From contig MFPR01000006.1 of assembly GCA_001784175.1 (NCBI GenBank), forward strand, positions 1 through 64,000: 64,000 nucleotides of DNA. Direction: 5' to 3'. The notes under the pieces were generated by a model that was not told the DNA's origin, did not search any database, and saw only the letters and a list, made by a program, of their open reading frames with translations. Both the position numbers and the translations under genes were made by a program. The stretch comes from Candidatus Lindowbacteria bacterium RIFCSPLOWO2_12_FULL_62_27. Its GTDB lineage: Bacteria; Lindowbacteria; 2-12-FULL-62-27. Shown here piece by piece: positions 47,490 to 64,000 of the stretch; position 1 is the first letter of the stretch; the number at the start of each line of letters is the position of its first letter.

Positions 47490-48268
47490 ATATGAATCTG
47501 ATTGTCCGGTTGGCCGGAGAATTTTGGAGTCGGACGGGCGATCCGGACTCATTTCCAAGGGACATTGAATCGGCCGTATCTCTTTCGATTCCGATGGCCA
47601 TTGTTAAACTTCCGAGGCTTGAAGTGTCCGCGATTGCCCAGTGGTTTGATCAACGCGGCATCCAGCGTCCTTTTCCTCCCGATGGCCGACCTCTCGCGGG
47701 TTGTCTCATCGCCTTTCGAGGGCAGGCCATCGCCTTTCTGGACGGAGCGGAGCCGGCCGACGAACGAAGATTTAACCTCGCCCATGAGGTTGCGCATTTT
47801 TTGCTCGATTATCTGGATCCGCGCCTGCGCGCTTTGGACCATTTTGGCCCGAGTATACTGGATGTTCTCGATGGACTCCGGCGTCCCAGCGTAACGGAAC
47901 GGGTTGATGCTCTTTTGAGCCGTGTGGCCTTGGGTGTCCATGTCCATTTGATGGAAAGAGGACGCAGGCGTGAGGTCGATCCAGAATCTGTAGCTGTTTC
48001 GGAACACTGGGCGGATGTCCTGGCCTTCGAACTGCTGGCGCCGCGAAGGCGTGTGACATCGATAATTGGGCGCGCCGAATCGTCGTCGCTGGATAGCGTT
48101 TCTGATACCGGTGTCGAAAAGGCGGCGGGGTTATTGGCCAAAGAATTTGGATTGCCGCCTGGTGAGGCTGAAATATTGGCGAAACTGATTTTGAAACCGA
48201 AACACAAACCGCATTCCTTGCTTCACGAACTCGGATTCTCACCTGTAAAGAAAGGGGTGGATAGATAA
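47486..48268 (+). CDS. ImmA/IrrE-type metallopeptidase
   Basis: 260 aa. The zinc-protease motif HEVAHFLLDY (about residue 97) has HExxH with a downstream Glu/Asp candidate (SEHWADVLAFELLAP). ImmA/IrrE proteases cleave repressors or anti-sigma-like proteins after damage or phage signals. Here it may cleave the preceding small protein or the sigma-like factor and so switch the defence operon on. The next gene begins directly after its stop codon. Confidence 0.85.
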   Translation: MNMNLIVRLAGEFWSRTGDPDSFPRDIESAVSLSIPMAIVKLPRLEVSAIAQWFDQRGIQRPFPPDGRPLAGCLIAFRGQAIAFLDGAEPADERRFNLAHEVAHFLLDYLDPRLRALDHFGPSILDVLDGLRRPSVTERVDALLSRVALGVHVHLMERGRRREVDPESVAVSEHWADVLAFELLAPRRRVTSIIGRAESSSLDSVSDTGVEKAAGLLAKEFGLPPGEAEILAKLILKPKHKPHSLLHELGFSPVKKGVDR

Positions 48269-49492
48269 ATGGAAGAAGAATCAATTGCGGAAGTTCCGGC
48301 CCTGCCGGTTCTGGATGAAGATGCGGTGATCAGCGGTGCGGAGTGGGAACGCGCCTATGGCGAAAAAATTGAGCACATGCTGAATCTGGACACATGGAAA
48401 AGCGGTGACGATCTGCCCGGCCTATTGGAGCGATTGGACCGGGAGATCGGAGAGGCACTTTCACAAGAGGATAATCTTCAGAGACAGATTCGGGACTTGT
48501 TGTTCCCCAGAATCGGCAAACAAAAGGGCGCCCCGAAAAATGCGGGCGTTTACCAGGCCACGGCCGATCAGTTGGATCGTGTCTATCGCAAAATTCTGTT
48601 TAATGGCGGAGTCGAAGCCTGTGATGGAACAAGCCTCGTCCATGACACTCTGCCCATGACCATCATCCAGATCGGGGTGTGCCTTGTGTCCTATCATGGA
48701 GAGCAGGGATCGTGGATCCAGCGTTTTTACAGGCGTGATTTGCGCGTCCGCGGGACTGATATCGTGGATGAAGCCCTTAAGATTCTTGGGCAACGAGAGC
48801 GCAAAGATTCGCGCGGCAAACCTCTTCGCATGAAAATGACAGAACTCAGCAAGAGAGGAATCATGGCCTACGCGGAGCGGGCCGCGCTCCTGCAAAAATG
48901 CACGGCGCCTTGGAGAATGGGGCAAGGAAACCCGGCGCCTTATGAGCTTTTGACCGGCTCTGGCAGTCCGGAACTGATTGAGCAGAGTCTGCCGATTCTT
49001 GAAGAGTTGATCGGACACATCAAAAGATTTGTGTTTATTCCAAGCTCGACGACCAATGTTTTGATTCAAACGATTGGCCAGGCTCTGCGTCCCCTTGAAT
49101 TCGCTATTGTGGATACCGAAGCCCATCGGATAGGCGCGCTGGTAGACAGAGGCCACTACAGAGGCGATCAGTATCGAGCGCAGAAGGAGCGTTTGGATGC
49201 ATTCGTACAGGATTTGGGTCCGCAGATCGTGGTGGGCGTCTACCGAGCTACCCATGAGGCGCCTGCGCAAGTGTTCTACGCGCATGAGGAGCACGCGCAG
49301 GAAGCGGCGCTCATTGCGATGGCGGACAGCGCCCTGCAGGCGCATCGCGGATTTCCGATGCTGATCGACATTGCGGATTCCATTTGTAGCGGGGCCTTCG
49401 GGCTGGACGGATTCAATTCCAGTATCCAGAGCGCCTATGCGAAGCACGGCCAGCCCCTGCGTTATCTGGGCGAGAGGGAAACCCGTCGGTAA
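48269..49492 (+). CDS. NurA-like nuclease
   Basis: 407 aa. It has the NurA-type first motif DG (ACDGTSLVHD, Asp at residue 119) before a hydrophobic beta-strand, and C-terminal acidic residues (AIVDTEAHRIGALVDRGHY; IDIADSICSGAFG). NurA is a 5'-3' exo/endonuclease that works with the HerA ATPase, which is encoded next. Overall similarity is diverged; the assignment depends on the motif and the HerA neighbour. A zero-gap junction with the peptidase gene shows co-translation. Confidence 0.6.
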   Translation: MEEESIAEVPALPVLDEDAVISGAEWERAYGEKIEHMLNLDTWKSGDDLPGLLERLDREIGEALSQEDNLQRQIRDLLFPRIGKQKGAPKNAGVYQATADQLDRVYRKILFNGGVEACDGTSLVHDTLPMTIIQIGVCLVSYHGEQGSWIQRFYRRDLRVRGTDIVDEALKILGQRERKDSRGKPLRMKMTELSKRGIMAYAERAALLQKCTAPWRMGQGNPAPYELLTGSGSPELIEQSLPILEELIGHIKRFVFIPSSTTNVLIQTIGQALRPLEFAIVDTEAHRIGALVDRGHYRGDQYRAQKERLDAFVQDLGPQIVVGVYRATHEAPAQVFYAHEEHAQEAALIAMADSALQAHRGFPMLIDIADSICSGAFGLDGFNSSIQSAYAKHGQPLRYLGERETRR

Positions 49493-49563
49493 ATTTTTCG
49501 GATGTTGTCGAACTTTCCGTGGCCGGCGGGAATAAAGAGAGGACAACAAAAAAGGAGGCTGAC

Positions 49564-51456
49564 ATGGAAACTGAAACAAGCGGTTCGTCAACATTGGCGG
49601 ATAAGAAAGATTGGAAACCAGGCACCGTCTCATCCGAAACCATGGAAGGAATAGACGCTGTCGCGGAAGAGGTGGGAGCGGAATATACATCCCTGCCCGA
49701 ACACGAGGGCGCGATTGCGTTCACCCATTTTGATACGCCGAGCAGCGAGGACCACCGCATCACGGTCCTCCTGACAAAGGAAAATATGGCATCCATGCCT
49801 CTTCAGTCCCTTGTTCGGATAAAAAGCCTGGAGGACAGCAGATCTTACATCGGGAGCGTGACCGCCGGGCCGTTTGCCGAACCCGATGGCCTCCGGGCGG
49901 ATTCGCCCATTGTTGTGACAACGACCGTCAAGGGCAAAATATTTCTGCCGCGCTATCACGGGCGTGCTTACGTATCGATTCTTGGGGAAGAATCAAACAA
50001 TCAGATGTTGCCGCCCCGTTTCCGGCCTCGGCCGAACAGTCCGGTATTCCCTCTCACGACCGAGGAAACCATGAAGGCGCTGAAAATCGGGGGAGATATT
50101 CGGATTGGGAACATGGTGGGTGTCGACAATCTGGTGGTTTCGATCCCGTCGAAACGTAAAGATGTCCTTCCGCGTCACACAGGGATTTTTGGAACGACCG
50201 GCGGCGGTAAATCGACGACCAACTCCGGCCTCATCAGCAAACTTCACCGCGCGGGCGTGGCCACGATCGTGATTGATGTGGAGGGTGAATATGTGGAGAG
50301 CGACCAGCCCACGGCCGATCCCCAAATGAAGGAAGGGCTGGCCAAACTCAATCTTCCGAGAGACGTCGTGGCCGATCTTCGGGTTTATCACTTGGAAGGC
50401 CGGGAGACGAACCGGGAAATCCCGGGGAAACTCCATCCTTTTTGTTTGAAATTTTCAGACATCTCCCCGTATGCGGTCAAGGAGATTTTGGAACTGACCG
50501 AGCCACAGGAACAACGTTTTTTCAAAACCTATGACACGCTCAAAATCATTCTGGAACGTCTCAAGATTTATCCGCGGACGTCGGATGAAAAGACCGAGGC
50601 GCTGGAGATTGACGAATTTGATACGGGTTATCCACATGTGACGATTAGCCAGATGATTGATTTGGCCGGCGTGTTTCTTGCCCAGTTGGACGAGGATAAG
50701 AATTCTAAAAAAACAAAAACGTCGGATTCGGGCGAACAGAGGGTGTACCCCACGTGGACATCGGAGTTTCGAGGACATGAGGATGTTTTGAAATCCTGCG
50801 CCGCGCAGGCGCAGGCCCTTGGCATTCCCATCAGCTGGCGCGCCCTACTGGTTCATTTGTGGAAGGTGGCGCGATTGAAAGTGTTCGACAATCCCAAAGC
50901 GCCGGCGCTCAATTACGAGGATCTGATTCACCCGGGTCGGGTATCGGTGTTCGATCTTTCGGATACCGGATCGCCGCGAGTCAACAATCTGGTCATTTCG
51001 GATATTTTGCGCGGCGTACAGGCGGCGCAGGAGGCTAGCTACAAGGAGGCCGTTAAACGTGGCGTCGCGCCGAGTCCCGTCGTCATCATCATCGAGGAGG
51101 CGCACGAATTTTTGTCCGACCAGCGCATCAAGCAGATGCCCATCCTGTTTCAGCAGGTTGCCCGGATCGCCCGGCGTGGCCGCAAGCGCTGGCTGGGGCT
51201 TGTCTTTTCGACACAGATGCCCCAGCACCTGCCGGACGAGGTTCTGGGTCTGCTCAATAATCACGTCATTCACAAGATATCGGATTCTCACGTGATCGAC
51301 CACCTGCGAAAATCGCTGGGCGGATTCGACGCCGGCATATGGAAAATGGTTCCGAGCCTGGCTCCCGGTCAGGCCGTCGTATCCATGGCTCACATGGCGC
51401 GGCCGATCATGGTCAGCGTTGATCCGACTCCCTGCAGGCTCAAACTGTCCAACTGA
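49564..51456 (+). CDS. herA: HerA-like hexameric ATPase
   Basis: 630 aa from ATG 49564, preceded by AAAGGAGG. An N-terminal HAS-barrel-like region leads to Walker A GTTGGGKST (residue 210), Walker B VVIIIEEAHEF (about 506) and the HerA/FtsK-type RRGRKRWLGLVFSTQMP and LNNHVIHKISD segments. HerA translocates on DNA ends and drives NurA resection. Its stop is 2 bp before cas4-cas1, so it is translated with the CRISPR adaptation genes. Confidence 0.85.
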   Translation: METETSGSSTLADKKDWKPGTVSSETMEGIDAVAEEVGAEYTSLPEHEGAIAFTHFDTPSSEDHRITVLLTKENMASMPLQSLVRIKSLEDSRSYIGSVTAGPFAEPDGLRADSPIVVTTTVKGKIFLPRYHGRAYVSILGEESNNQMLPPRFRPRPNSPVFPLTTEETMKALKIGGDIRIGNMVGVDNLVVSIPSKRKDVLPRHTGIFGTTGGGKSTTNSGLISKLHRAGVATIVIDVEGEYVESDQPTADPQMKEGLAKLNLPRDVVADLRVYHLEGRETNREIPGKLHPFCLKFSDISPYAVKEILELTEPQEQRFFKTYDTLKIILERLKIYPRTSDEKTEALEIDEFDTGYPHVTISQMIDLAGVFLAQLDEDKNSKKTKTSDSGEQRVYPTWTSEFRGHEDVLKSCAAQAQALGIPISWRALLVHLWKVARLKVFDNPKAPALNYEDLIHPGRVSVFDLSDTGSPRVNNLVISDILRGVQAAQEASYKEAVKRGVAPSPVVIIIEEAHEFLSDQRIKQMPILFQQVARIARRGRKRWLGLVFSTQMPQHLPDEVLGLLNNHVIHKISDSHVIDHLRKSLGGFDAGIWKMVPSLAPGQAVVSMAHMARPIMVSVDPTPCRLKLSN

Positions 51457-51458
51457 TC

Positions 51459-53168
51459 ATGCTGCCGGCCAATTCGTCAGATCCGCTGATTCCAGTTCGT
51501 GCATTGAATCAAATCAATTTTTGCGAACGGCTGTTTTACTTGCAATATGTCGAAGGTCTGATGGCAGTGAACGCCTACGTGGAGGACGGCAGCGTCAAAC
51601 ATCGCCGGATGGCGGAAATATCGGCTCCCTGCCAGCCGCGCATGGAGGATGGAGTGATACACACCCGAAGCGTCAGCCTCTCATCCGAGAGACTTGGGAT
51701 TACGGCCAAGCTCGACCTCGTCGAGGAAACAGACAACAAGATATTTCCTGTCGAATACAAGCGGTCAGCCGCGCCCGCCGGCGGAAACCCATGGTGGGAA
51801 AATGACGCGATCCAGCTGTGCGCCCAGGTTTTTCTTCTGGAAGAACATCTGGGAAAGGCGATCCATGAGGGCGTACTCTATTACATTGGATCGAAATCCA
51901 GGAGCGTCGTTCCGATGGACGCATCCCTTCGGGAGAAAACACTGCATGCCATTCGCCGCGCCCGGGAACTGTTCGCGTCTGACAAGACGCCGCCTCCTTT
52001 GCCGGTCGAAAAGGCTCACCGGTGTGAGGGGTGCTCGCTGGTGGCGATCTGTCAGCCGGAAGAGACAAGAATGTTGACCGGAATGAAGACGCTCCGGAGA
52101 AATGCGGCCTCCGGAGTGACACGAGTGATGCCGACGCGGAACGATGGCGCCGTGCTTTACCTCCAGGAGCAGGGATCGCGGGTTTCAAAGCAAAGCGAGC
52201 ACCTGATCGTGCGATGCGAGGGGAAAGAAATGCAAAAGGTTCCAATGGCGGCTGTCCGGCAGGTGCTGCTTTTTGGCAACGTCCAAATTTCGACGCAGAC
52301 CCTGGGATTGTTGCTTCAGCAGGAAGTGGACGTCACGATTTTGAGCGCACGGGGCCGGTTTATCGGCGCTGTGGTCCCGGCGCCCACGAAAAATGTCACG
52401 TTACGGGCGGAGCAATATCGACTGTTTTCAAATCCGGCGGCCACGTTGCGACTGTCACAAGCCTGCATTCGGGCGAAAATTTCAAATCAACGAACGCTGC
52501 TCATGCGGTCCCTGCGATCCAGGGGCGGGGATGTCAGCGTGCCGCGCGGAGGCGATTCCCCGGCGGCGGAGGAGATGGCGCGATTGGCAAATTCAGTTGA
52601 ACGCGTGGAAGACGCGGAAACACTGCTGGGAGTCGAAGGGCAGGCCGCTCACGTTTACTTTTCAAATTTTCAGCAGATGATCAAATCCGTCGGCGGCGGA
52701 TTTGATTTCCAGTTCCGCAACCGCCGTCCGCCCCGGGATCCCGTCAACGCCCTTCTCTCGCTCGCCTATTCGCTTTTGGCGAAAGACGCCTTCGCGGCCG
52801 TCCTGACGGTCGGATTCGATCCCTATCTTGGTTTTTACCATGGCTCAAAATTCGGCCGGCCATCTCTCGCCCTGGACATGATGGAAGAATTTCGGGCTGT
52901 GATCGCCGATTCAGTTGTCCTCACCGTGATCAACACCGGTGTTGTTCAGGAAGCCGATTTTCTTCGCTGGGGAAATGCCTGTCAGTTGACCGACCCCGCT
53001 CGAAAACGTTTTTTTGAGGCGTATGAACAGCGGAAGGCCGTTGAAATTACGCACCCTGTCTTCGGATACAAAATGACCTGCGGCCGGATGCTCGAAGTTC
53101 AGGCCCGCCTGCTTGCGGCGTTCGTGCGTGGAGACATTTCCGAATACAAGGGATTCACCGTTCGCTGA
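51459..53168 (+). CDS. cas4-cas1: Cas4-Cas1 fusion, CRISPR adaptation protein
   Basis: 569 aa. Cas4 part (about 1-205): Cys22 plus C189, C192 and C198 for the iron-sulfur cluster, and RecB-like KLDLVEE...VEYKRS. Cas1 part (about 215-569): Glu393 in GVEGQAAHVYF, His461 in GFYHGSKFGRPS and the acidic D473/E476 in ALDMMEEFR, the metal-ligand set. Cas4 trims prespacers to the PAM and Cas1 integrates them. A Cas4-Cas1 fusion next to Cas2 and the effector is typical of type V-B. All motifs are intact. Confidence 0.93.
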   Translation: MLPANSSDPLIPVRALNQINFCERLFYLQYVEGLMAVNAYVEDGSVKHRRMAEISAPCQPRMEDGVIHTRSVSLSSERLGITAKLDLVEETDNKIFPVEYKRSAAPAGGNPWWENDAIQLCAQVFLLEEHLGKAIHEGVLYYIGSKSRSVVPMDASLREKTLHAIRRARELFASDKTPPPLPVEKAHRCEGCSLVAICQPEETRMLTGMKTLRRNAASGVTRVMPTRNDGAVLYLQEQGSRVSKQSEHLIVRCEGKEMQKVPMAAVRQVLLFGNVQISTQTLGLLLQQEVDVTILSARGRFIGAVVPAPTKNVTLRAEQYRLFSNPAATLRLSQACIRAKISNQRTLLMRSLRSRGGDVSVPRGGDSPAAEEMARLANSVERVEDAETLLGVEGQAAHVYFSNFQQMIKSVGGGFDFQFRNRRPPRDPVNALLSLAYSLLAKDAFAAVLTVGFDPYLGFYHGSKFGRPSLALDMMEEFRAVIADSVVLTVINTGVVQEADFLRWGNACQLTDPARKRFFEAYEQRKAVEITHPVFGYKMTCGRMLEVQARLLAAFVRGDISEYKGFTVR

Positions 53169-53175
53169 CCGCTCC

Positions 53176-53463
53176 ATGCCGGAAACCCACATCGTTTCGT
53201 ATGATATTCGGCATCCCAAGCGTCTGCGCCGCGTCGCCAAGACATGCCAGGACTTTGGCTGCCGGCGCCAGCTCTCCGTGTTTTTGTGTAGAATCTCTCC
53301 GGTCGACCTGATACGGTTAAAAGATCGATTGAATGAGATCATTGATCGCAAGAACGACCAGATTCTGTTCATCCGGCTGTGCCAAAGTTGCGGCGATGGC
53401 ATCGAATCGCTCGGTCAGCCGACCTTGCGTCACGATGTCACGGATGTCTGTCTGGTGATCTGA
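53176..53463 (+). CDS. cas2: Cas2 adaptation protein
   Basis: 95 aa from ATG 53176, chosen because the product then starts at MPETHIVSYDIRHPKRLRRVAK, the Cas2 ferredoxin-fold beginning with its conserved Asp10. It forms the Cas1-Cas2 integrase complex. It lies 7 bp after cas4-cas1 and 8 bp before the effector. Confidence 0.92.
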   Translation: MPETHIVSYDIRHPKRLRRVAKTCQDFGCRRQLSVFLCRISPVDLIRLKDRLNEIIDRKNDQILFIRLCQSCGDGIESLGQPTLRHDVTDVCLVI

Positions 53464-53471
53464 GGGTGCCT

Positions 53472-56400
53472 ATGGCCGTTAAAACCTATAAAGCTCGAAT
53501 CCATTTTGAATCCCTTCTGAAAGAACCCGCACAGGATCCCGCTCGCTTTCCGAACCGGGCAGCCGAGCTTCGCCAGTTGCTCTGGGATACGCACCGGGCT
53601 TTCAATCAGGGCGTCCGATATTTGATGCAGGAGCTGGTCTTGATGCGTCGTGGCGCCGGCGTCTGGAGAGAAAATTCATATGGAGTATGGAGGGAATGGG
53701 ACAAAATAAAAACATACGATCAGATTGTGGATATTCGCCGACGCATGTCCGCAACCCCGTCGTCAGTCCGTCTTTTGGAAAATCGGGAGCTTCTCGACCG
53801 ATTCCGTCAGGTTGTAAAATCTGAGTCGGAGGCGGTTGAATTGGCGAATGCGTGTTCCGTGATTTTTGATGCGATTTGCCAGCCGGCGGAAGATGGAGAA
53901 CTGGTTCAAATGCCGCGTGATGATCTGGATTTGCTGACCAACCTAAATTCAACTGCAAAGGGAATCCGGGAACGGGGTAAAACCAAAGAAGGGACGGACA
54001 AGAAAAAATCAGGACGAAAATCGTCATGGCCGATGGACAAGGCTGCATGGGAAACGGCGAAAACCTCCGATAGTTCGGCGCATTTTTTAGAGAAGTTGAA
54101 ACAGCACCCGGATTTAAAGGATGCGTTCGGAAACCTCAGTAGTGGTGGCTCGAAAAAACTGGAATATTATAAAAAACTTGCCGGCTCCGCGCCGTGGAAG
54201 GAGTCTCAATCCGTCATTTTGGAGAAAGCCGCGCGATGGAAAGAGGCGAAACAGGAGCGTGAAGAAAAGGAGCAAGATTCTTCCGAGCATGGTTCCAAGG
54301 CCGCTTATCGGCGGTTGTTTGACGCCGGCTGTCTGCCGATGCCTGAGTTTGCGAAATATATCGATGAGAACCAAATTGAATTTGGCGACCTGAAACTTAG
54401 TGATTGCGGGGCGGAATGGAAGCGCGGCATGTGGAATCAGGCGGGCCAGCGGGTGCGAAGTCACATGGGATGGCAGCGCCGGCGCGAAAAAGAAAATGCC
54501 GTCTATTCTTTAAGAAAGGAACTATTCGAAAAGGGCGGCGCCATTCGACGCAAGAAATCCGAAGAACTGACGCCGGAGGACATTTTACCCGGTAAGGCGG
54601 CTCCAGACCAGAATGATTGGCAGGAGCGGCCTGCCTATGGAAATCAGATGTGGTTCATCGGTCTGCGTTCCTATGAAGAAAATGAAATGGCCAAATATGC
54701 GGAAGAGGCCGGGATGGGTTCGCGGTCTGCTCCGCGAATTCGAAGGGGCACGATCAAAGGCTGGTCGAAGCTCCGCGAACGCTGGCTGCAGATTTTGAAA
54801 AGGAATCCGCAAGCGACTCGTGACGATCTGATCGGCGAGCTAAATGCCCTGCGCTCTCAAGACCCGCGGGCGTATGGCGACGCGCGGTTGTTTGATTGGT
54901 TGTCCAAGACGGATCAGAGATTTTTATGGGACGGTTTCGATGCGGATGGAAAAATTTTATGCGGGAGGGACGATCGTGACTGCGTCTCGGCATTTGTGGC
55001 GTATAACGAAGAATTCGCGGATGAGCCTTCGTCGATCACCTTGACGGAAACGGATGAACGTCTTCATCCCGTGTGGCCGTTTTTCGGCGAATCCTCGGCA
55101 GTGCCATACGAGATCGAATATGATTTGGAAACCGCTTGTCCGACGGCTATTCGATTACCCCTGCTGGTTGGCAAGGAGAACGGCGGATATGCGGAGAGAC
55201 AGGGGACTCGGTTGCCGCTTGCAGAATATGCGGATTTGGCCAGCAGTTTTCAATTGCCCACGCCTGTGCGGCTTGACGTCCTTGTAGAAATTCGAGAAGT
55301 CACAAGAGCCGGCAGGAAAGTGACATGCCCCTTTTCGTATTTTAAGCAGAATGGTGTTTGGTATGTCCGAGAGGGGGAGATTCCATCCGGAGAATCAATC
55401 CAGATCAAACAGACGGACCGCAAAATTGAAAATGGAAAAATATTCATTTCCTCCAAACTGCGAATGGCGTACCGGGACGATCTCATGGTGTCGCCTGCAA
55501 CCGGAGATTTTGGGAGCATCAAAATTCTTTGGGAGAGAATCGAACTGGCGTCGCATGTCGATCAGAAAAAACTGCCGGAAACAGCTCCCGCGCGTTCACG
55601 CGTTTTTGTCTCGTTCAGTTGCAATGTCGTGGAGCGGGCGCCGCGCAAACAACTGACCCGAAAGCCAGACGCCGTTGTGGTGACCATTCCAAGCGGTGTG
55701 GATCAGGGACTGGTTGTCGTCTCGACTGATGTCAGGACAGGGAAATCCAAATCTTCTTCCGCGCCGCCACTGCCGCCGGGATCGCGCTTATGGCCTGCCG
55801 ATGCCGTTCATGGTGATCCGCCTCTTCGTATTTTGAGTGTGGATTTAGGGCATCGTCATTCAGCCTATGCGGTGTGGGAGCTGGGTCTTCAGCAAAAGTC
55901 ATGGCGGGCCGGAGTCTTGAAGGGATCTACTCAAACTCCTGTTTATGCGGATTGTACGGGAACGGGACTGCTTTGCCTGCCGGGTGATGGAGAAGATACG
56001 CCGGCGGAGGAAGAATCCTTGCGTTTACGATCGCGGCAGATTCGCAGGCGGTTGAACCTGCAAAACTCCATCTTGCGCGTGTCGCGTCTTTTGTCGTTGG
56101 ATAAATTTGAAAAAACGATTTTTGAGCAGAGCGATGTCAGGGACAGGCCCAATAAAAAGGGATTGCGGATTCGCAGGCGTTGTCGCACAGAAAAAACTCC
56201 GCTCAGCGAGGCGGAAGTTCGGAAGAATTGTGACAAGGCCGCCGAGATATTGATCCGATGGGCTGATACGGACGCCATGGCCAAGTCGTTGGCGGCGACA
56301 GGGAACGCAGATATTTCATTCTGGAAATATATGGCAGTGAAAAATCCGCCGCTGTCGGCCGTTGTTGATGTGGCGCCATCGACGATTGTCCCTGACGATG

Positions 56401-58004
56401 GCCCGGATCGAGAAACGCTGAAAAAGAAACGGCAGGAGGAGGAAGAGAAATTCGCCTCCAGCATTTATGAGAATCGGGTGAAACTGGCCGGGGCTTTATG
56501 TTCCGGCTATGATGCCGATCATCGGCGGCCGGCGACAGGAGGATTATGGCATGATCTCGACCGAACATTGATTCGTGAAATCAGTTACGGGGACAGGGGC
56601 CAAAAAGGCAATCCGAGGAAGTTGAACAATGAAGGGATCCTTCGGCTTTTGCGCCGCCCACCCCGTGCCAGGCCTGATTGGCGTGAGTTTCATAGAACGT
56701 TAAATGACGCCAATCGGATTCCCAAGGGCCGGACTCTGCGAGGCGGACTGTCGATGGGCCGGTTAAACTTTCTGAAAGAAGTTGGTGATTTTGTCAAAAA
56801 GTGGTCATGCCGGCCGCGTTGGCCTGGTGATCGCCGCCATATTCCGCCCGGCCAACTATTTGATCGACAGGATGCCGAGCATCTGGAGCATCTCCGGGAC
56901 GACCGGATCAAACGTCTGGCGCATTTGATCGTCGCGCAGGCGCTTGGATTTGAACCGGACATCCGGCGTGGGTTGTGGAAATATGTGGACGGGTCGACCG
57001 GGGAAATATTGTGGCAGCATCCTGAAACGAGGCGCTTTTTCGCAGAAGGCGCCGCGGGTGAATTGCGGGAAGTCTCGCGGCCGGCTGAAATAGATGACGA
57101 TGCCGCGGCAAGACCCCACACGGTTTCAGCGCCGGCTCATATTGTAGTCTTCGAAAATCTCATCCGGTATCGATTCCAGTCGGACAGGCCGAAGACCGAG
57201 AACGCCGGCCTCATGCAGTGGGCGCACCGGCAGATCGTGCATTTCACCAAACAAGTGGCGTCTCTTTATGGCCTGAAAGTGGCCATGGTCTATGCGGCGT
57301 TCTCATCCAAATTTTGTTCACGTTGCGGTTCGCCGGGCGCCCGCGTCAGCCGTTTTGATCCTGCATGGAGAAATCAAGAATGGTTTAAACGTCGAACTTC
57401 GAATCCGCGAAGCAAGGTCGACCATTCGTTAAAGCGGGCATCGGAAGATCCAACGGCAGATGAAACCCGGCCGTGGGTTCTGATCGAAGGAGGCAAAGAA
57501 TTTGTATGCGCCAATGCCAAATGTTCTGCGCATGATGAACCATTAAATGCCGATGAAAATGCGGCGGCGAATATCGGACTGCGTTTTCTTCGGGGTGTCG
57601 AAGACTTCCGTACAAAGGTTAATCCGGCGGGAGCTCTCAAAGGGAAACTCAGATTCGAAACGGGAATCCATTCATTTCGACCGCCTGTGTCGGGATCGCC
57701 GTTCTGGAGCCCGATGGCAGAGCCGGCGCAAAAAAAGAAAATCGGAGCGGCGGCGCCCGGAGCGGATGTTGACGAAGCCGGGGATGCGGATGAAAGTGGC
57801 GTTGTGGTTTTGTTCCGTGATCCAAGCGGCGCCTTTCGGAACAAGCAATACTGGTATGAAGGCAAGATATTCTGGTCAAATGTCATGATGGCGGTCGAGG
57901 CCAAAATTGCGGGGGCAAGTGTTGGCGCAAAGCCTGTGGCGGCATCCTGGGGCCAAGCTCAACCGCAAAGCGGACCCGGACTCGCCAAACCAGGAGGTGA
58001 CTGA
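53472..58004 (+). CDS. cas12b: Very large Cas12b-like (type V-B) effector
   Basis: 1510 aa from ATG 53472. That start gives MAVKTYKARI and then LLWDTHRAFNQGVRYLMQEL, closely like the Cas12b N-terminus. The RuvC triad is D791 (SVDLGHRHS), E1228 (VVFENLIRYRFQSDRP, then LMQWAHR) and D1361 (LNADENAAANIG). A zinc ribbon sits between RuvC-II and III (C1282/C1285 and C1346/C1351). Well-known Cas12b proteins are about 1100-1300 aa; here about 220 residues extra lie before RuvC-I and about 160 between RuvC-I and II. It should be a crRNA:tracrRNA-guided DNA nuclease. Classification as V-B is strong; the large size is unusual. Confidence 0.9.
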   Translation: MAVKTYKARIHFESLLKEPAQDPARFPNRAAELRQLLWDTHRAFNQGVRYLMQELVLMRRGAGVWRENSYGVWREWDKIKTYDQIVDIRRRMSATPSSVRLLENRELLDRFRQVVKSESEAVELANACSVIFDAICQPAEDGELVQMPRDDLDLLTNLNSTAKGIRERGKTKEGTDKKKSGRKSSWPMDKAAWETAKTSDSSAHFLEKLKQHPDLKDAFGNLSSGGSKKLEYYKKLAGSAPWKESQSVILEKAARWKEAKQEREEKEQDSSEHGSKAAYRRLFDAGCLPMPEFAKYIDENQIEFGDLKLSDCGAEWKRGMWNQAGQRVRSHMGWQRRREKENAVYSLRKELFEKGGAIRRKKSEELTPEDILPGKAAPDQNDWQERPAYGNQMWFIGLRSYEENEMAKYAEEAGMGSRSAPRIRRGTIKGWSKLRERWLQILKRNPQATRDDLIGELNALRSQDPRAYGDARLFDWLSKTDQRFLWDGFDADGKILCGRDDRDCVSAFVAYNEEFADEPSSITLTETDERLHPVWPFFGESSAVPYEIEYDLETACPTAIRLPLLVGKENGGYAERQGTRLPLAEYADLASSFQLPTPVRLDVLVEIREVTRAGRKVTCPFSYFKQNGVWYVREGEIPSGESIQIKQTDRKIENGKIFISSKLRMAYRDDLMVSPATGDFGSIKILWERIELASHVDQKKLPETAPARSRVFVSFSCNVVERAPRKQLTRKPDAVVVTIPSGVDQGLVVVSTDVRTGKSKSSSAPPLPPGSRLWPADAVHGDPPLRILSVDLGHRHSAYAVWELGLQQKSWRAGVLKGSTQTPVYADCTGTGLLCLPGDGEDTPAEEESLRLRSRQIRRRLNLQNSILRVSRLLSLDKFEKTIFEQSDVRDRPNKKGLRIRRRCRTEKTPLSEAEVRKNCDKAAEILIRWADTDAMAKSLAATGNADISFWKYMAVKNPPLSAVVDVAPSTIVPDDGPDRETLKKKRQEEEEKFASSIYENRVKLAGALCSGYDADHRRPATGGLWHDLDRTLIREISYGDRGQKGNPRKLNNEGILRLLRRPPRARPDWREFHRTLNDANRIPKGRTLRGGLSMGRLNFLKEVGDFVKKWSCRPRWPGDRRHIPPGQLFDRQDAEHLEHLRDDRIKRLAHLIVAQALGFEPDIRRGLWKYVDGSTGEILWQHPETRRFFAEGAAGELREVSRPAEIDDDAAARPHTVSAPAHIVVFENLIRYRFQSDRPKTENAGLMQWAHRQIVHFTKQVASLYGLKVAMVYAAFSSKFCSRCGSPGARVSRFDPAWRNQEWFKRRTSNPRSKVDHSLKRASEDPTADETRPWVLIEGGKEFVCANAKCSAHDEPLNADENAAANIGLRFLRGVEDFRTKVNPAGALKGKLRFETGIHSFRPPVSGSPFWSPMAEPAQKKKIGAAAPGADVDEAGDADESGVVVLFRDPSGAFRNKQYWYEGKIFWSNVMMAVEAKIAGASVGAKPVAASWGQAQPQSGPGLAKPGGD

Positions 58005-58021
58005 TAGAATGACGGCGTCAT

Positions 58022-58306
58022 ATGAGAATTAAAGGCCTGATCTGGCTGGAAGAATATATCGATAAACTCGAGCACAAGCACCAATTGACGCAGGAGGAAG
58101 TCAGAGAGATTTTCAAAAACCAGCCTCGTTTCCGATATGTTGAAAAAGGCGCCCAAGAGGGGGAGAATGTGTATGTGGCGAAGGGGCAGACGGAGGCGGG
58201 TCGGTATGTGAGTGTGTTTTTTATTTATAAAAAAACGGGCTGGGCATTGGTTATCTCAGCGCGAGAGATGAAACCGAAGGAGAAAAAGAGATATGAAAAA
58301 AGGTAG
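58022..58306 (+). CDS. brnT: BrnT-like (DUF497) toxin
   Basis: 94 aa. It has the DUF497 pattern: WLEEYIDKLEHKHQLTQEEVREIF, a central YVAKGQTEAGRYVSVFFIY and the C-terminal ALVISAREMKPKEKKRYEK. BrnT proteins are RelE-fold ribonuclease toxins neutralised by BrnA. It begins 17 bp after the effector stop and overlaps the partner gene by 14 bp, so it is inside the CRISPR operon. Confidence 0.8.
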   Translation: MRIKGLIWLEEYIDKLEHKHQLTQEEVREIFKNQPRFRYVEKGAQEGENVYVAKGQTEAGRYVSVFFIYKKTGWALVISAREMKPKEKKRYEKR

Positions 58307-58568
58307 AGGTTCGATTTCTGGAGGTAAAACGTACAAGCAGATCGGCGAGTTTTGGGACACGCACGATCTTGGCGACTATTGGGCCCGGACACGACCCGCA
58401 TCCTTCGAAGTCGATCTCCAAGCCGAAATGACGTATTGTCCCCTGGAAAGGGATTTGTCGAAGAAAATCCGTTCCATCGCCCAGCGGCAGGGCGTTACGC
58501 CCGATACGCTGGTGAATCTGTGGTTGCAAGAAAAAGTGCAGACGCAAGTTCAGGAGAAGATGGCATAG
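58293..58568 (+). CDS. brnA: BrnA/CopG-like antitoxin
   Basis: 91 aa from ATG 58293 with a GAAGGAG ribosome-binding site. The N-terminal EFWDTHDLGDYWARTRPASFEVDL and C-terminal ribbon-helix-helix-like KIRSIAQRQGVTPDTLVNLWLQEK are typical of the CopG-type partners of DUF497 toxins. It probably neutralises the preceding protein and represses the pair. Confidence 0.75.
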   Translation: MKKGRGSISGGKTYKQIGEFWDTHDLGDYWARTRPASFEVDLQAEMTYCPLERDLSKKIRSIAQRQGVTPDTLVNLWLQEKVQTQVQEKMA

Positions 58569-58749
58569 GACAAGCCAAAAATTCCGCTTGACGGTTGCCG
58601 GGCCATATCGATTTTTGCGCGGATGCGCTCAGACTCGAAGGGACACCCGTTGCGGCATAGGGCCGATGATGAAAAGATGAGAAAGAGTTATTTGTTTTCA
58701 CTCAAAGTGTGTCTTCGGCCTCCCAGGCATGGCACAGCCTAGCCGAATT
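58569..58749. other. Non-coding region upstream of tracrRNA
   Basis: I see no gene here and no convincing promoter by eye, although transcription of the tracrRNA should start in it. A terminator for the operon was not clear either. Confidence 0.5.
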
Positions 58750-58845
58750 CGGGGGTGTTAGGTTCACGGTCTATTGGCCGTGAACTTAATCCCGCCTAAC
58801 CGCGGGACGACTGAGTGGAGTCAGCTGTTATGAGGAGGATTTTCA
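58750..58845 (+). ncRNA. Candidate tracrRNA
   Basis: The anti-repeat GCTGTTATGAGGAGGA (58824-58839) is complementary to the middle of the CRISPR repeat at 15 of 16 positions. Upstream, GTTCACGG (58762-58769) and CCGTGAAC (58778-58785) form a perfect 8-bp hairpin enclosed by CGGG (58750-58753) and CCCG (58791-58794). GTGTT (58755-58759) can pair with the GACAC end of the repeat. This order (GTG-type short anti-repeat, inner hairpin, closing CCCG, long anti-repeat) is the arrangement of known Cas12b tracrRNAs. Ends are approximate. Confidence 0.75.
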
Positions 58846-58859
58846 AAGCAGGTGTCCAG

Positions 58860-59056
58860 AGGACCGGGCGAGGGGCAAGGTGATAGTTGTTTGTTGCCGA
58901 TCCCTCGCATGTTCGATAAGTGGCTCATCACCTGTTGGATGCCGTGGTCTTTCACATTTTGTGCGGACGGAGATAGCGCTTCGTGACCCGATCGCAAGGG
59001 CCATTCTCGCAGTCCCGAACGCATCTTATTGAGTATGTGTGAGACACGACGAGGCT
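58860..59056 (+). other. CRISPR leader region
   Basis: About 200 bp between the anti-repeat and the first repeat without a gene. It presumably holds the leader used for spacer integration, as it is on the tracrRNA and cas side of the array. No clear promoter was identified. Confidence 0.5.
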
Positions 59057-59677
59057 GAGGAAATTTCCTCCTCACAACAGCGGGCTTGGACACTACGGAG
59101 ATAGTCACGGATTGTCTCCTGTGTTGTGAGGAAATTTCCTCCTCACAACAGCGGGCTTGGACACGGATCATCCTCTGGTCAACGGGTCTTTGGATCGTCG
59201 TGAGGAAATTTCCTCCTCACAACAGCGGGCTTGGACACAATTCCTTTACGATCTGGCCACAGCATCAGGCCACGGAGGAAATTTCCTCCTCACAACAGCG
59301 GGCTTGGACACAGCCCGCCGCCGACCTCGGCCAGCACCGGCGCGGTGAGAGGAAATTTCCTCCTCACAACAGCGGGCTTGGACACTTTCTTTTCCATGCT
59401 CGATACTCCTTCATCGACATGAGGAAATTTCCTCCTCACAACAGCGGGCTTGGACACTTATGACATAACCCGGACTAGCATTGTCTGTTAGTTGAGGAAA
59501 TTTCCTCCTCACAACAGCGGGCTTGGACACGCGTTGCAGTAACTGCGATATGCAGTTGCCCGATATGAGGAAATTTCCTCCTCACAACAGCGGGCTTGGA
59601 CACTCTAAACCTACATCTTCTCTACCTAATCATCCACGAGGAGGAAATTTCCTCCTCACAACAGCGGGCTTGGACAC
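59057..59677 (+). CRISPR. CRISPR array, 9 repeats and 8 spacers
   Basis: Nine identical 37-bp repeats begin GAGGAAATTTCCTC and end GGGCTTGGACAC, starting at 59057, 59128, 59202, 59275, 59349, 59421, 59494, 59567 and 59641. The eight spacers are 34, 37, 36, 37, 35, 36, 36 and 37 bp and all differ. The first 14 bp are a perfect palindrome. The -GGACAC end resembles the -GGCAC end of other type V-B repeats, implying transcription on the plus strand with the spacer after that end. No sign of repeat decay at either end. Confidence 0.97.
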
Positions 59678-59796
59678 AGAAATTTTTCGTGCCAGTATTT
59701 CCCGGCTGGCAGGCCGTGCGGCGAGGGGCCGCCTGAGATCGCGGGTGGTGGACTCGCTCTCGCGTGTCCTTGACCGCCTATCATGTGGTTGATTTT

Positions 59797-61454
59797 ATGC
59801 TGGGGATGAATCAGGAATTGGAGCAAGCCCGGCTTGAAATCGAGAGACTGAAAAATGAAAACGCGGAACTTCGAAAAACGCTGGGATTGCTGCCTGCCGA
59901 ACCACAGCCCCACCTCGAAATGGGCATTCGCGAAGTTGTGATCGATTCCATGCCATTGCCCTCAATGACAAAAGATTCGCCTACAAAAGAAAAAGTCGCG
60001 TTGTTCCGAATGCTTTTCAGAGGCAGGGACGATGTATATGCGCTCCGTTGGGAGAATGAACGAACAGGCAAGAGAGGTTATTCCCCGGTGCGCGAGGGAG
60101 GGGCGGTCGGGAAAGCGGCCAGGTCAAAAAAATGTTTGCCGCTGACGGATCGGGCCGTCCAGGATCATTTGTCCGGCGAGAAGATCATCGGCGCCTATCC
60201 GCTGCTCTTGGACAATACTTGCTGGTTTCTTGCATGCGATTTTGACAAGGAGGGGTGGACGCTGGATTCGCCGGCATATCTGAATGTCTGCAATCGATAT
60301 GGAGTGCCGGCCTGTCTGGAGCGATCGCGGTCGGGTAATGGCGGCCATGTGTGGATTTTTTTTTTTCGTCACCCATTTCGGCGACTTCGGCCAGACAGTT
60401 GGGGATGCGATTGCTTCGAGAAACAATGGTTGTGCGCGGCGAGATGGATCTCGCCAGTTACGACCGATTTTTTCCGAATCAGGACTTTGTCCCCAAAGGC
60501 GGATTTGGAAATCTCATCGCCCTGCCGCTCCAGAAGAAATGCCGGCAGCTTGGAAACACGGAATTCGTAAACCCGCAGGATTCGGTTCTTCGGCCATGGT
60601 CGGACCAGTGGGCTTTTCTAAGCCAGGTCAAACGGATTTCCCCTATCCATGTAGATGCCTTGCTTGAAACAATCCCGCCTATCGCCGTGGGGTTGGGATC
60701 TGCGGCCAGGGGTTCCGCCGAATTGCGCCGCATCCTCGGCCTCACGGCAACACCATACCGCCGTGACGGATTGCAAGGGATAATCGAGATGCAGTGTGGT
60801 CCGATCCGATACCGGATGCCGTCGGCGAAAAGCGGCATGACGGTCCATTTGATCGAGAGGCCGACAAATTTTTCATACCACTCGTTCGATCTCGCGAGTC
60901 CGGCCATACAGGATATTTTTGGCGCTCTGGTCAAAGACAATTCCCGAAATGCGCTGATCCTGGAGGATGTGCGGCAGGCGCTGTCACAGAAGGGGCATTG
61001 CCTGATGCTGACCCACAGAAAAGAGCATTGCCAATTGCTCGCTGAAGGGCTGGCCAGATCCGGCGTAAATCCATTTATACTGACCGGCGATCTAGGCAAA
61101 AAAGAACGGACAGCCATCATCAAGGAGATTCAGAATATGTCTTCCGACAAAGAATTCCTCATCATCGCCACAGGCCAGTACCTCGGCGAGGGATTCGACT
61201 GTCCGCAGGTCGACACACTTTTCCTGGCATTCCCCATTTCGTTCAAGGGCAATCTGGTTCAATACGTCGGGAGGACTCTGCGAACTCGCGAGGGCAAAGA
61301 GCGCGTTCGGATTTATGACTATGTGGACGCGGAAGTGCCCGTGCTCAAGAGAATGTTCGGCAAGCGCGTCAAGGCGTATAAATCTCTTGGTATCAGCGTG
61401 GATGACGAAGAGGAAGCATCGCAGAAATACACTTTACCGAATCTCGAATCTTAA
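59797..61454 (+). pseudogene. Broken AEP primase/SF2 helicase (TOTE-like) gene
   Basis: The first part (to about 60360) has a coiled-coil start (ENAELRKTLGLL), then FRGRDDVYALRWENERTGKRGYSP, the metal motif ACDFDKEGW and SGNGGHVWIFF, the archaeo-eukaryotic primase signature. A run of 11 T at 60356-60366 shifts the frame; the continuation (SSPISATSARQLG) is in the next frame. The helicase part has lost its first RecA domain: no Walker A or DExH is present, and the sequence jumps into LRRILGLTATPYRRDG, followed by an intact second RecA domain with GEGFDCPQVDTL and QYVGRTLR. It probably was a defence primase-helicase. Confidence 0.75.
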
Positions 61455-61497
61455 ATTTGCTTTTAGGGTGATTCTGGCATATCAAACGAAATGTTGA

Positions 61498-62556
61498 TTA
61501 CCTCGGCCGATCGAGGTCGGTTCGCATTTGTCCGATTTTTCCGGCGTTGAATTTTTCCTCGACCGCTGCCAGGTGCGTCATCATCGCAGCGAAAGGCGGC
61601 GGCGTGGACATGAACATGTCCGTCATATCCCGGTAGTCTCGCTCGATCTGCTGACGCCGATCGGGTGCAGGCGCCAGATGGAAACTGCCGGGCATGGCCG
61701 TATCATAGTGCGCCCATGCCGAGCGGAAAAAAGACTGTTTGTGTTTGCGCACTCGGGTCAACAGGTCAATGTCCGCCAGGGCGCGTTCTCCGGCGGGATT
61801 TCGGCTCAAGCAATACATATCGTAATAGTGCCGCGAAATGCCGATGGCCGGCGGCTTGTCCGCGGGACGATGATACTCGGCATGCAGGATCGTCGCCTTC
61901 TCCCAGAAAGTTCGTTCGGCTTCGAGAGCGACAACCGGACACGATGCCGCGCGAAACAAGTCGGAGAAGACATCCGCCACGATCGGTGTAATCGTGTGAG
62001 CGGCCACCGGCCGCTGGTCGTAGAGCGCGCCAAATTCCAGTTTCACCTGTGGTCGCAGAGATCCCGTTATCTTGCCGGATCGAGGGTAAGCGAATAGGAT
62101 GACCGGTGAGTGCGTCGCGGCGTCCACTTCGAACTCAAGCGCTGACGCCTGCGTGCCGGGCAACTTGGCAGTAATGTGGCGGGCCAGGACAGGCATGAAG
62201 CGGTCGCGAACCACCGTAATGCAGGCCTCCTCAAGAACCTTGGTACGCTTGTCGTGCTGTGAACGACTGGATGCGGCGTCCGGCCGCATGTCCCCGCCGA
62301 AGCCAAGCCAATCAGGGTCGACGGCAAGGTCAATGTCTTCGGAAAAGCGCTGGATGATGCCAAATACTTTCGAGAGCGATGTGCCGCCTTTGAAAATCAG
62401 GCGACCTCCCAATTCGGGATCGGAAAAAATCACTCCGAGAAGCCAGCACACCCAGAAATCCTTTTCGACGATATGGCTGCCAATGCTCCGGCGGGCACCG
62501 GCTTCCTCAAACACTGCAGACTGCTCCGGGGTCGGTGTTCGCGCAAACTCAAGCAT
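61498..62556 (-). CDS. abiEii: AbiEii-type nucleotidyltransferase toxin
   Basis: 352 aa. The core IFKGGTSLSKVFG and FSEDIDLAVD (about residues 54-80) is the GSx10DxD-type motif of AbiEii/MenT toxins, which transfer nucleotides to tRNA or other targets. ERTFWEKATILHAEYHRP and YYDMYCL are further family motifs. It overlaps abiEi by 8 bp. With abiEi it forms a type IV abortive-infection pair. Confidence 0.88.
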   Translation of the reverse strand: MLEFARTPTPEQSAVFEEAGARRSIGSHIVEKDFWVCWLLGVIFSDPELGGRLIFKGGTSLSKVFGIIQRFSEDIDLAVDPDWLGFGGDMRPDAASSRSQHDKRTKVLEEACITVVRDRFMPVLARHITAKLPGTQASALEFEVDAATHSPVILFAYPRSGKITGSLRPQVKLEFGALYDQRPVAAHTITPIVADVFSDLFRAASCPVVALEAERTFWEKATILHAEYHRPADKPPAIGISRHYYDMYCLSRNPAGERALADIDLLTRVRKHKQSFFRSAWAHYDTAMPGSFHLAPAPDRRQQIERDYRDMTDMFMSTPPPFAAMMTHLAAVEEKFNAGKIGQMRTDLDRPR

Positions 62557-63163
62557 TCGGTGGTGTCCTCCGGCATATTTCCAATAGATATGGGCGCATC
62601 CACGCCGGCGCGCGGATACGGTCCTTCGTCAGACATTGCTTGTCTTTCGTGTCCAATTTTTTCCGGAGTATTCCAACATGCCGGCTGGTCAACCGATCTT
62701 TGCCGACAAACCTCAATGCCTGAATCACGATTCCGCTTGTGCGGCCGGCGGTCGCCATAGTTCGGGGTGTGGCGCGTTTCAAAATGATCTCCCGCCCGCC
62801 AATCTTCACGCGCCGGGATATCCCGTCCGTCAGATACACGATCCGGGCCGGGACCTGTTCGGACAAGCCAAGCAGGTTTGCGGCGAAAGCGCCGGATGGC
62901 TGCATTCGGATGGCCCGGCTTCTGGACAGGGCGCGGGCTATCGCATCCGGATCGGGCGCCATCTGACCGAGTCGGGGATGGATGCGAGGAAAGTCGTAAA
63001 GTCCCTGCGCCAAACGGCGGATGGCCTTGCGCCGGGCTTGGCGATGCAATGCCGTCCAAACCGCGCCGTCTCCGCCCAAGTCGGCAAAGTCGGCTGGTGT
63101 AAAGCACCAACCTCTGCCTCTACCTCGGATACGCGCGGCCATCATTTTTTCGATATGTTTCAT
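62549..63163 (-). CDS. abiEi: AbiEi-type antitoxin/transcriptional autoregulator
   Basis: 204 aa from the ATG at 63163, preferred because GGAG lies at the right distance before it; the ATG at 63178 would leave only a few bases after the promoter. The N-terminal winged-helix region (RGRGWCFTPADFADLG, RRLAQGLYDFPRIHP) is followed by the AbiEi C-terminal domain. It represses its own promoter in known systems. Confidence 0.83.
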   Translation of the reverse strand: MKHIEKMMAARIRGRGRGWCFTPADFADLGGDGAVWTALHRQARRKAIRRLAQGLYDFPRIHPRLGQMAPDPDAIARALSRSRAIRMQPSGAFAANLLGLSEQVPARIVYLTDGISRRVKIGGREIILKRATPRTMATAGRTSGIVIQALRFVGKDRLTSRHVGILRKKLDTKDKQCLTKDRIRAPAWMRPYLLEICRRTPPNA

Positions 63164-63189
63164 GGATTTCGGCTCCATTTCTGTAAGGA

Positions 63190-63218
63190 ATTATAATCAA
63201 TTTTCCTTACAAATGCAA
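63190..63218 (-). promoter_or_regulatory. AbiE operon promoter
   Basis: On the minus strand TTGCAT (63218-63213), 17 bp and TATAAT (63195-63190) form a near-consensus sigma-70 promoter. Its -35 box is only one base from the degenerate CRISPR repeat. Confidence 0.75.
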
Positions 63219-63219
63219 A

Positions 63220-63256
63220 GAGGAAATTCTCTCCGCACAACGGTAGGCTTGGACAC
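63220..63256 (+). repeat. Solitary degenerate CRISPR repeat
   Basis: A 37-bp sequence identical to the array repeat at 31 of 37 positions, including the GAGGAAATT start and the complete GGCTTGGACAC end. It stands alone, 3.5 kb from the array, directly upstream of the AbiE promoter and facing the opposite way. Full length, conserved 3' end and isolation argue against chance similarity. Confidence 0.85.
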
Positions 63257-63279
63257 CCTGTAATTTCGTGTGACGTAGG

Positions 63280-63308
63280 TTGACTCATATATGGATTCCA
63301 TTCTAATA
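63280..63308 (+). promoter_or_regulatory. Possible promoter before the ORF6N gene
   Basis: TTGACT (63280-63285), 17 bp, then CTAATA (63303-63308); TAATAA with 18 bp spacing is an alternative. The GTG start follows within 10 bp, so the transcript would be nearly leaderless. Confidence 0.45.
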
Positions 63309-63316
63309 ATCGCTCT

Positions 63317-63658
63317 GTGAAAAAGATCAAACTTCGAGACAATGAAACGGTGCTTGAGGATGAGGCGGCACGACTATATCGCGTGGATGTACCCGCGCTC
63401 CGGCGTTCCCTGGGACGAAACAAAAAGCGATTTCCGGGCGGCGCTGTGTTTCAATTGACCAAATCAGAGATGACAGCACTCGGCTTGAAATTTGTCCGAT
63501 CCAGATCGGCGCCGTATGCGTTCACTCGATTCGGATACATCATGCTCGCCAACATCCTCAACAGCCCTACGGCCATCAAGGCGCACATCCGAAGAATCAG
63601 GAGTGTTTGCCGGCACCTGTCTTTTGAGGCGATTATCAGGATGATTGCCGGTCAATAG
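63317..63658 (+). CDS. ORF6N-domain protein
   Basis: 113 aa from GTG 63317. An N-terminal LYRVDVPALRRSLGRNKKRFP segment and FTRFGYIMLANILNSPTAIKAHIRRIRSV match the ORF6N DNA-binding domain often found in phages and mobile elements. It lacks the usual C-terminal extension. Probably a regulator belonging to the island. Confidence 0.8.
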   Translation: MKKIKLRDNETVLEDEAARLYRVDVPALRRSLGRNKKRFPGGAVFQLTKSEMTALGLKFVRSRSAPYAFTRFGYIMLANILNSPTAIKAHIRRIRSVCRHLSFEAIIRMIAGQ

Positions 63659-63825
63659 CGGAGGGTCGCACAATTCATTTTTAGAAAATCTCATTCCCAA
63701 GCGGCCTTCAAAAAACTTACGAAAAACTTACAAAAACTTTGGATGCAAAAAGTTGGCACTAATTTGGCACCAAATCGAAAATGGACTTTTGTAACCCATT
63801 CATTTATGAGCGACTAACAAAAATC
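63659..63825. other. Right-end non-coding region of the island
   Basis: Contains AACTTACGAAA (63714-63724), shared with the left end, and the TTGGCAC direct repeat. No gene is visible. Confidence 0.6.
63751..63774 (+). repeat. Island-end direct repeat, right copy
   Basis: Matches 44919-44942 at 23 of 24 positions, same orientation, and lies 51 bp inside the right junction. Confidence 0.7.
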
Positions 63826-63877
63826 AGGCAGCGGCCTTTGGAGCCGTTATCCGCAGGTTCGAATCCTGCCGCCCCAG
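63826..63877 (+). repeat. attR: 3' half of tRNA-Gln
   Basis: 52 bp identical to the tRNA 3' part except one T to C change. The acceptor-5' and D-arm portion is missing upstream, so it is not a functional tRNA but the second attachment site. Confidence 0.88.
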
Positions 63878-63906
63878 AATTTTTCCATCTTCCATTTCCT
63901 TCAGAT

Positions 63907-63941
63907 TTGACGAATGTATTGATCATACGTATAATATACGT
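63907..63941 (+). promoter_or_regulatory. Consensus promoter with palindromic operator
   Basis: TTGACG (63907-63912), exactly 17 bp, TATAAT (63930-63935). The -10 box lies inside the perfect palindrome ACGTATA-A-TATACGT (63927-63941), an ideal autorepressor site. Confidence 0.8.
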
Positions 63942-63964
63942 GTAAACTTAGGAGGTGGTCCACC

Positions 63965-64000
63965 ATGCCCAAGACGGCATTGAAAAAGGAAAAATGGACG
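63965..64000 (+). CDS. Start of a gene running off the window
   Basis: Only 12 codons (MPKTALKKEKWT) are visible, preceded by AGGAGG at ideal spacing. The strong promoter with an operator over the -10 box suggests an autoregulated small regulator, for example an antitoxin, but the family cannot be told. Confidence 0.6.
   Translation, partial: MPKTALKKEKWT

Follow-up and report, generated by a model that had tools for sequence, protein, structure and literature searches.

The 64,000-nucleotide stretch of DNA that was analysed (hereafter the window) is best explained, with high confidence, as carrying a complete type V-B CRISPR-Cas locus for DNA interference, with a long-form Cas12b as effector. 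The effector (the window protein) is a Cas12b and represents a deep, sparsely sampled lineage of that family. Its relatives were sorted into a short clade (Bacillota and MPTRTINLK types), a long clade A (ChCas12b-like) and a long clade B (Verrucomicrobiota-like). The contig that carries the window measures 266 kb, and the genome 4.39 Mb.

Organization of the locus

The genes and elements were ordered cas4-cas1, cas2, cas12b, a BrnT/BrnA-like pair, tracrRNA candidate and array (Table 1). The preliminary description had assigned the locus to type V-B, and this was upheld: the Cas12b family scores, intact catalytic triad, Cas4-Cas1 fusion, Cas2, repeats and tracrRNA candidate were all found. The order differed from that of the other V-B loci in which both genes were found: in 34 of 34 of these, cas4-cas1 was located downstream of cas12b and shared its strand; here it was upstream. 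Derivation of the Cas4-Cas1 protein from another subtype was considered and not upheld. Of ten V-B fusions compared with the Cas4g/Cas1g model, nine scored above its cut-off (the tenth, from L069, was truncated), and the model was therefore non-discriminating.

Two neighbouring gene sets were recorded. A pair made up of a BrnT-like toxin and a CopG/BrnA-like antitoxin was located at 58022-58568, between cas12b and the tracrRNA candidate. Directly 5' of cas4-cas1 (48269-51456), a HerA-like ATPase was preceded by an unmatched 407-aa protein, possibly forming a HerA-nuclease pair.

Table 1. Features of the type V-B locus, in window coordinates.
Feature	Position	Strand	Details
cas4-cas1 fusion, 569 aa	51459..53168	+	NF049935 670 bits, cut-off 560; lone branch in own tree
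cas2, 95 aa	53176..53463	+	PADLOC Cas2 1.8e-22
cas12b, long-form type V-B effector	53472..58004	+	1510 aa; NF033949 and PADLOC Cas12b; homologue alignment spans full length
Residues 594-659, insert before RuvC-I	55251..55448	+	Alignment columns 0.00-0.10 occupied in both long clades; near-absent in short clade
RuvC-I catalytic D791 (ILSVDLGHRH)	55842..55844	+	D in 21/21 aligned sequences
Residues 838-1092, expanded RuvC-I/RuvC-II interval	55983..56747	+	254 aa; medians: short clade 128, clade A 212, clade B 184
RuvC-II catalytic E1228 (VVFENL)	57153..57155	+	E in 21/21 aligned sequences
Zinc ribbon C1282xxC1285 / C1346xxxxC1351	57315..57524	+	From sequence; otherwise full set in L007 only
RuvC-III catalytic D1361 (NADENAAAN)	57552..57554	+	D in 21/21 aligned sequences
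tracrRNA candidate	58700..58850	+	Anti-repeat ~58815-58850; second pairing segment GUGUC near 58709
CRISPR array	59057..59677	+	37-nt repeat in nine identical copies; eight spacers, 34-37 nt
Orphan degenerate repeat	63220..63256	+	3.5 kb past array; 31/37 match by eye

Catalytic triad, segment lengths and zinc ribbon

The first alignment comprised 21 full-length Cas12b sequences, the window protein included. The proposed triad D791/E1228/D1361 aligned with D, E and D in all 20 of the other sequences. The inactivated V-B3 variant, in which RuvC-I and RuvC-II residues are substituted (PMC12669027), was excluded by this intact triad. Segment lengths were compared with those of AapCas12b (L016). 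The distance from the start to the RuvC-I aspartate was 787 residues against 566 (+221), and that from the RuvC-I aspartate to the RuvC-II glutamate was 437 against 278 (+159). The RuvC-II to RuvC-III distance (133 against 129) and the tail after the RuvC-III aspartate (149 against 152) were not enlarged. The extras of about 220 and about 160 residues, followed by none, that had been claimed from the sequence were therefore reproduced.

The CxxC/CxxxxC zinc ribbon was also present as described. Cysteines C1282, C1285, C1346 and C1351 were kept in the window protein and gone in AapCas12b. A kept ribbon was rare in this set but not unique, being also complete in the Elusimicrobia protein L007; these two were the only complete ribbons among the Cas12b rows examined. 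The pattern is consistent with an ancestral zinc ribbon that was lost more than once.

Long Cas12b homologues

Homologues were collected from GTDB contigs, a spread of 386 genomes, 387 Verrucomicrobiota (the phylum of L024) and 68 Hydrogenedentota (the phylum of L018). Open frames of 1346-1537 aa were obtained for n = 16 homologues, with start codons fixed for part of them. Cas12b scored above the cut-off in 12 of the 387 Verrucomicrobiota genomes, with full-length frames of 1346-1474 aa. Most non-Bacillota Cas12b recovered had 1350-1537 aa and the same two expanded regions. The start-to-aspartate and aspartate-to-glutamate segments were 721-768 and 387-417 residues in clade A and 718-758 and 331-384 in clade B, beside 787 and 437 in the window protein. 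A 1496-aa protein, ChCas12b, is represented by four PDB entries (9KLN, 9KLO, 9KLP and 9KLQ) released in July 2025. Over a 75-residue stretch, ChCas12b was identical to L069, which has the N-terminus of long clade A and finds its best matches there.

Size alone is therefore ordinary for the window Cas12b, since proteins of roughly 1,350-1,500 aa are common outside Bacillota. The large size had been put forward as a distinguishing mark because the comparison was made with compact Cas12b only; with long forms frequent outside Bacillota and the 1496-aa ChCas12b already solved, that point was not supported.

No close relative of the window protein was found in the searched GTDB contigs, the 386-genome spread, the 387 Verrucomicrobiota or the 68 Hydrogenedentota. 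Viral contigs, plasmids and phages likewise yielded no close relative, just a split, distantly related Cas12b carried by a plasmid of Alicyclobacillus dauci. This plasmid gene (L005, 2791-6155) appeared in the annotation as two overlapping ORFs, probably through a frameshift. In Alicyclobacillus cellulosilyticus (L012, 6116-11173), cas12b was broken by an inserted, transposase-like 453-aa ORF.

Phylogenetic position

Three Cas12b trees were made. The short clade was supported at 100/99, long clade A at 100/98-100 and long clade B at 100/99-100, each to the exclusion of the window protein. In all three trees the window protein formed a lone branch of approximately 2 changes per site and fell inside none of the three clades. 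In two trees it attached basally to the short clade (93/95 and 93/92, neither starred), and the third was undecided. A grouping with clade A, as its sister, was not rejected (p-AU 0.206). Full-length profiles of the short clade, clade A and clade B gave the window protein 329, 161 and 180 bits, respectively, a result that favours the short clade. The Cas4-Cas1 tree independently showed the window fusion as a lone branch too, basal to the short-clade group (88/88). The suggestion of a separate branch outside ordinary-length Cas12b was thus supported by the three Cas12b trees and repeated by the Cas4-Cas1 tree. Among the homologues, the Elusimicrobia locus L007 carried a clade-A Cas12b with a Cas4-Cas1 that grouped with that of Elusimicrobia L010 near the short clade, which suggests module exchange.

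A profile of the collected homologues built without the window protein gave it 454 bits, against 960 by NF033949. Eleven other members were scored both ways, and their two values differed by roughly a third at most. The NF033949 score, far above that of the held-out profile, suggests that NCBI's seed for this model already contains close kin of the window protein, so that such kin are probably known.

An unnamed V-B variant is a possible, though doubtful, reading of these data. The window protein would then be a fourth deep lineage, marked by the 594-659 insert, an ancestral TnpB-like zinc ribbon and the cas4-cas1-cas2-cas12b order, and its PAM or guide recognition may differ. The position outside three well-supported clades, with which the Cas4-Cas1 tree concurs, the upstream cas4-cas1 and the near-emptiness of the insert in clades A and B argue for it. 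Against this, the catalytic and locus features are all standard V-B, one sequence of the lineage was read, so that insert and gene order may be local quirks, and the difference between the NF033949 and held-out scores points to close kin in the NCBI seed. A standard V-B system with a long-form Cas12b is the preferred reading.

Location of the extra residues and predicted structure

The excess over the short clade was measured by blocks between conserved anchors. It was +71 residues in block 41-324, +32 in 324-438, +95 in 486-791, +126 in 838-1092 and +46 in 1150-1228, with no net growth from RuvC-II through the C-terminus. By the AacCas12b domain borders, the enlarged blocks are what we take to be REC1, the WED-II/PAM region and REC2. 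Of the "extra REC/Nuc domains" proposed in the preliminary description, the expansions before RuvC-I and between RuvC-I and RuvC-II stood and the Nuc part did not, as that region was not enlarged.

AlphaFold2 models were made as two halves from 26-27 sequences. Mean pLDDT was 65.7 and 61.2, indicating modest confidence, and values were below 50 at residues 597-648 and across much of 888-1091. Folded insert domains were not demonstrated, because much of the inserted sequence was modelled at low confidence (pLDDT under 50-60). It was the better-modelled parts that matched solved Cas12b. The N-terminal half was matched to 5WTI (Z 23.4, rmsd 5.6, 472 aligned), 5U30 (Z 21.9, rmsd 6.2, 480 aligned) and 9KLN (Z 15.7, rmsd 7.2, 441 aligned). 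The C-terminal half was matched to ChCas12b 9KLN (Z 24.0, rmsd 4.9, 460 aligned) and AacC2c1 5U34 (Z 22.4, rmsd 3.9, 419 aligned). The top structural matches for both halves were solved Cas12b chains.

Family identity and reading frame

The window protein scored 960.5 bits with the NCBIfam Cas12b model NF033949 (cut-off 150) and 970.6 bits with PADLOC Cas12b, the latter as a single continuous alignment over residues 21-1487. Models of Cas12c, Cas12f and TnpB gave weak matches in the RuvC/zinc part. These could point to a Cas12b-like protein of a different Cas12 subtype, but this is very improbable, given 31 bits for Cas12c against up to 970 for the Cas12b models and the lead of solved Cas12b chains for both model halves.

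The cas12b frame had no internal stop. Its ATG at 53472 corresponded in the homologue alignment to the MAVKxxK start of AapCas12b, and an alternative GTG at 53379, 5' of this ATG, overlapped cas2. The larger inserted segments had a codon-position composition similar to that of the remainder of the gene. Misassembly or a wrong start as the source of the large size, which the long branch and the lack of a close relative in the searched genomes might suggest, was ruled out to near certainty by the open frame, the PADLOC and NCBIfam models running across the whole protein, segment lengths agreeing with those of independent long homologues, the codon-position composition and the start match.

Guide RNA and CRISPR array

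Both strands of 48000-64000 were searched for duplexes with the repeat, and the best was at the tracrRNA candidate (−35.6 kcal/mol). The best duplex among 3000 random windows was −34.9, so that the anti-repeat energy alone is only approximately a 1-in-3000 event. The surrounding 211 nt (58700-58910) had a fold z of −4.4. When cofolded with the repeat, the candidate paired in two places, in one long duplex and in another with the repeat 3' end. The crRNA:tracrRNA of AacCas12b has a two-duplex layout, which the predicted cofold shares. A tracrRNA is accordingly predicted, from the modelled pairing, between cas12b and the array. In other V-B loci, the tracrRNA was found in this interval by Strecker and colleagues (PMC6342934).

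Six spacer cores had no exact match in viral contigs, and hence no protospacer was obtained that would give the T-rich 5' PAM expected of type V-B or a sign that the system is used.

TOTE-type primase, AbiEii and DUF6088 genes were located between the array and the orphan repeat and could represent an insertion within the array or next to it. The TOTE-type primase (AEP) domain at 59764-61454 was divided between two ORFs that overlap in different frames, with only a C-terminal helicase domain following, and looks like a decayed gene. Downstream of the array on the minus strand (61498-63178), an AbiEii nucleotidyltransferase and a DUF6088 protein form a probable type IV toxin-antitoxin pair.

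Comparison with known systems

ChCas12b resembles the window protein as a long, RNA-guided Cas12b with a RuvC nuclease, and is the best structural match of its C-terminal half. It differs in that the zinc-ribbon cysteines are absent in the aligned stretch. L069, identical to ChCas12b over the 75-residue stretch, shared a 297-residue BLAST match with the window protein at 32% identity, and its locus differs in having cas4-cas1 downstream. The short proteins AacCas12b, AapCas12b and BthC2c1 (about 1,110-1,130 aa) share the triad, the RuvC-II to RuvC-III spacing and the C-terminal length, but have approximately 380 residues fewer, have lost the zinc cysteines and are encoded with cas4-cas1 after cas12b. 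The Elusimicrobia Cas12b L007 (1452 aa) is likewise long and shares the CSRC / CxxxxC zinc ribbon, but falls firmly in long clade A and has the usual gene order.

Proposed function and significance

The V-B system is apparently functional. Cas4-Cas1 and Cas2 would take up spacers, and the array, once expressed, would give a transcript that pairs with the tracrRNA predicted in the cas12b-array interval. This dual guide would bring Cas12b to double-stranded DNA, to be cut by the single RuvC site. The approximately 380 extra residues expand the regions before RuvC-I and between RuvC-I and RuvC-II, like those of other long Cas12b; by analogy with AacCas12b, these would be the recognition and guide-binding lobes.

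The compact Cas12b adopted as a tool represents a single clade, and elsewhere in the family lengths of 1,350-1,500 aa are common. The window protein lies outside the sampled clades and has kept its zinc ribbon, which helps to place the loss of the ribbon. It also provides a test enzyme for the role of the extra regions of the long form.
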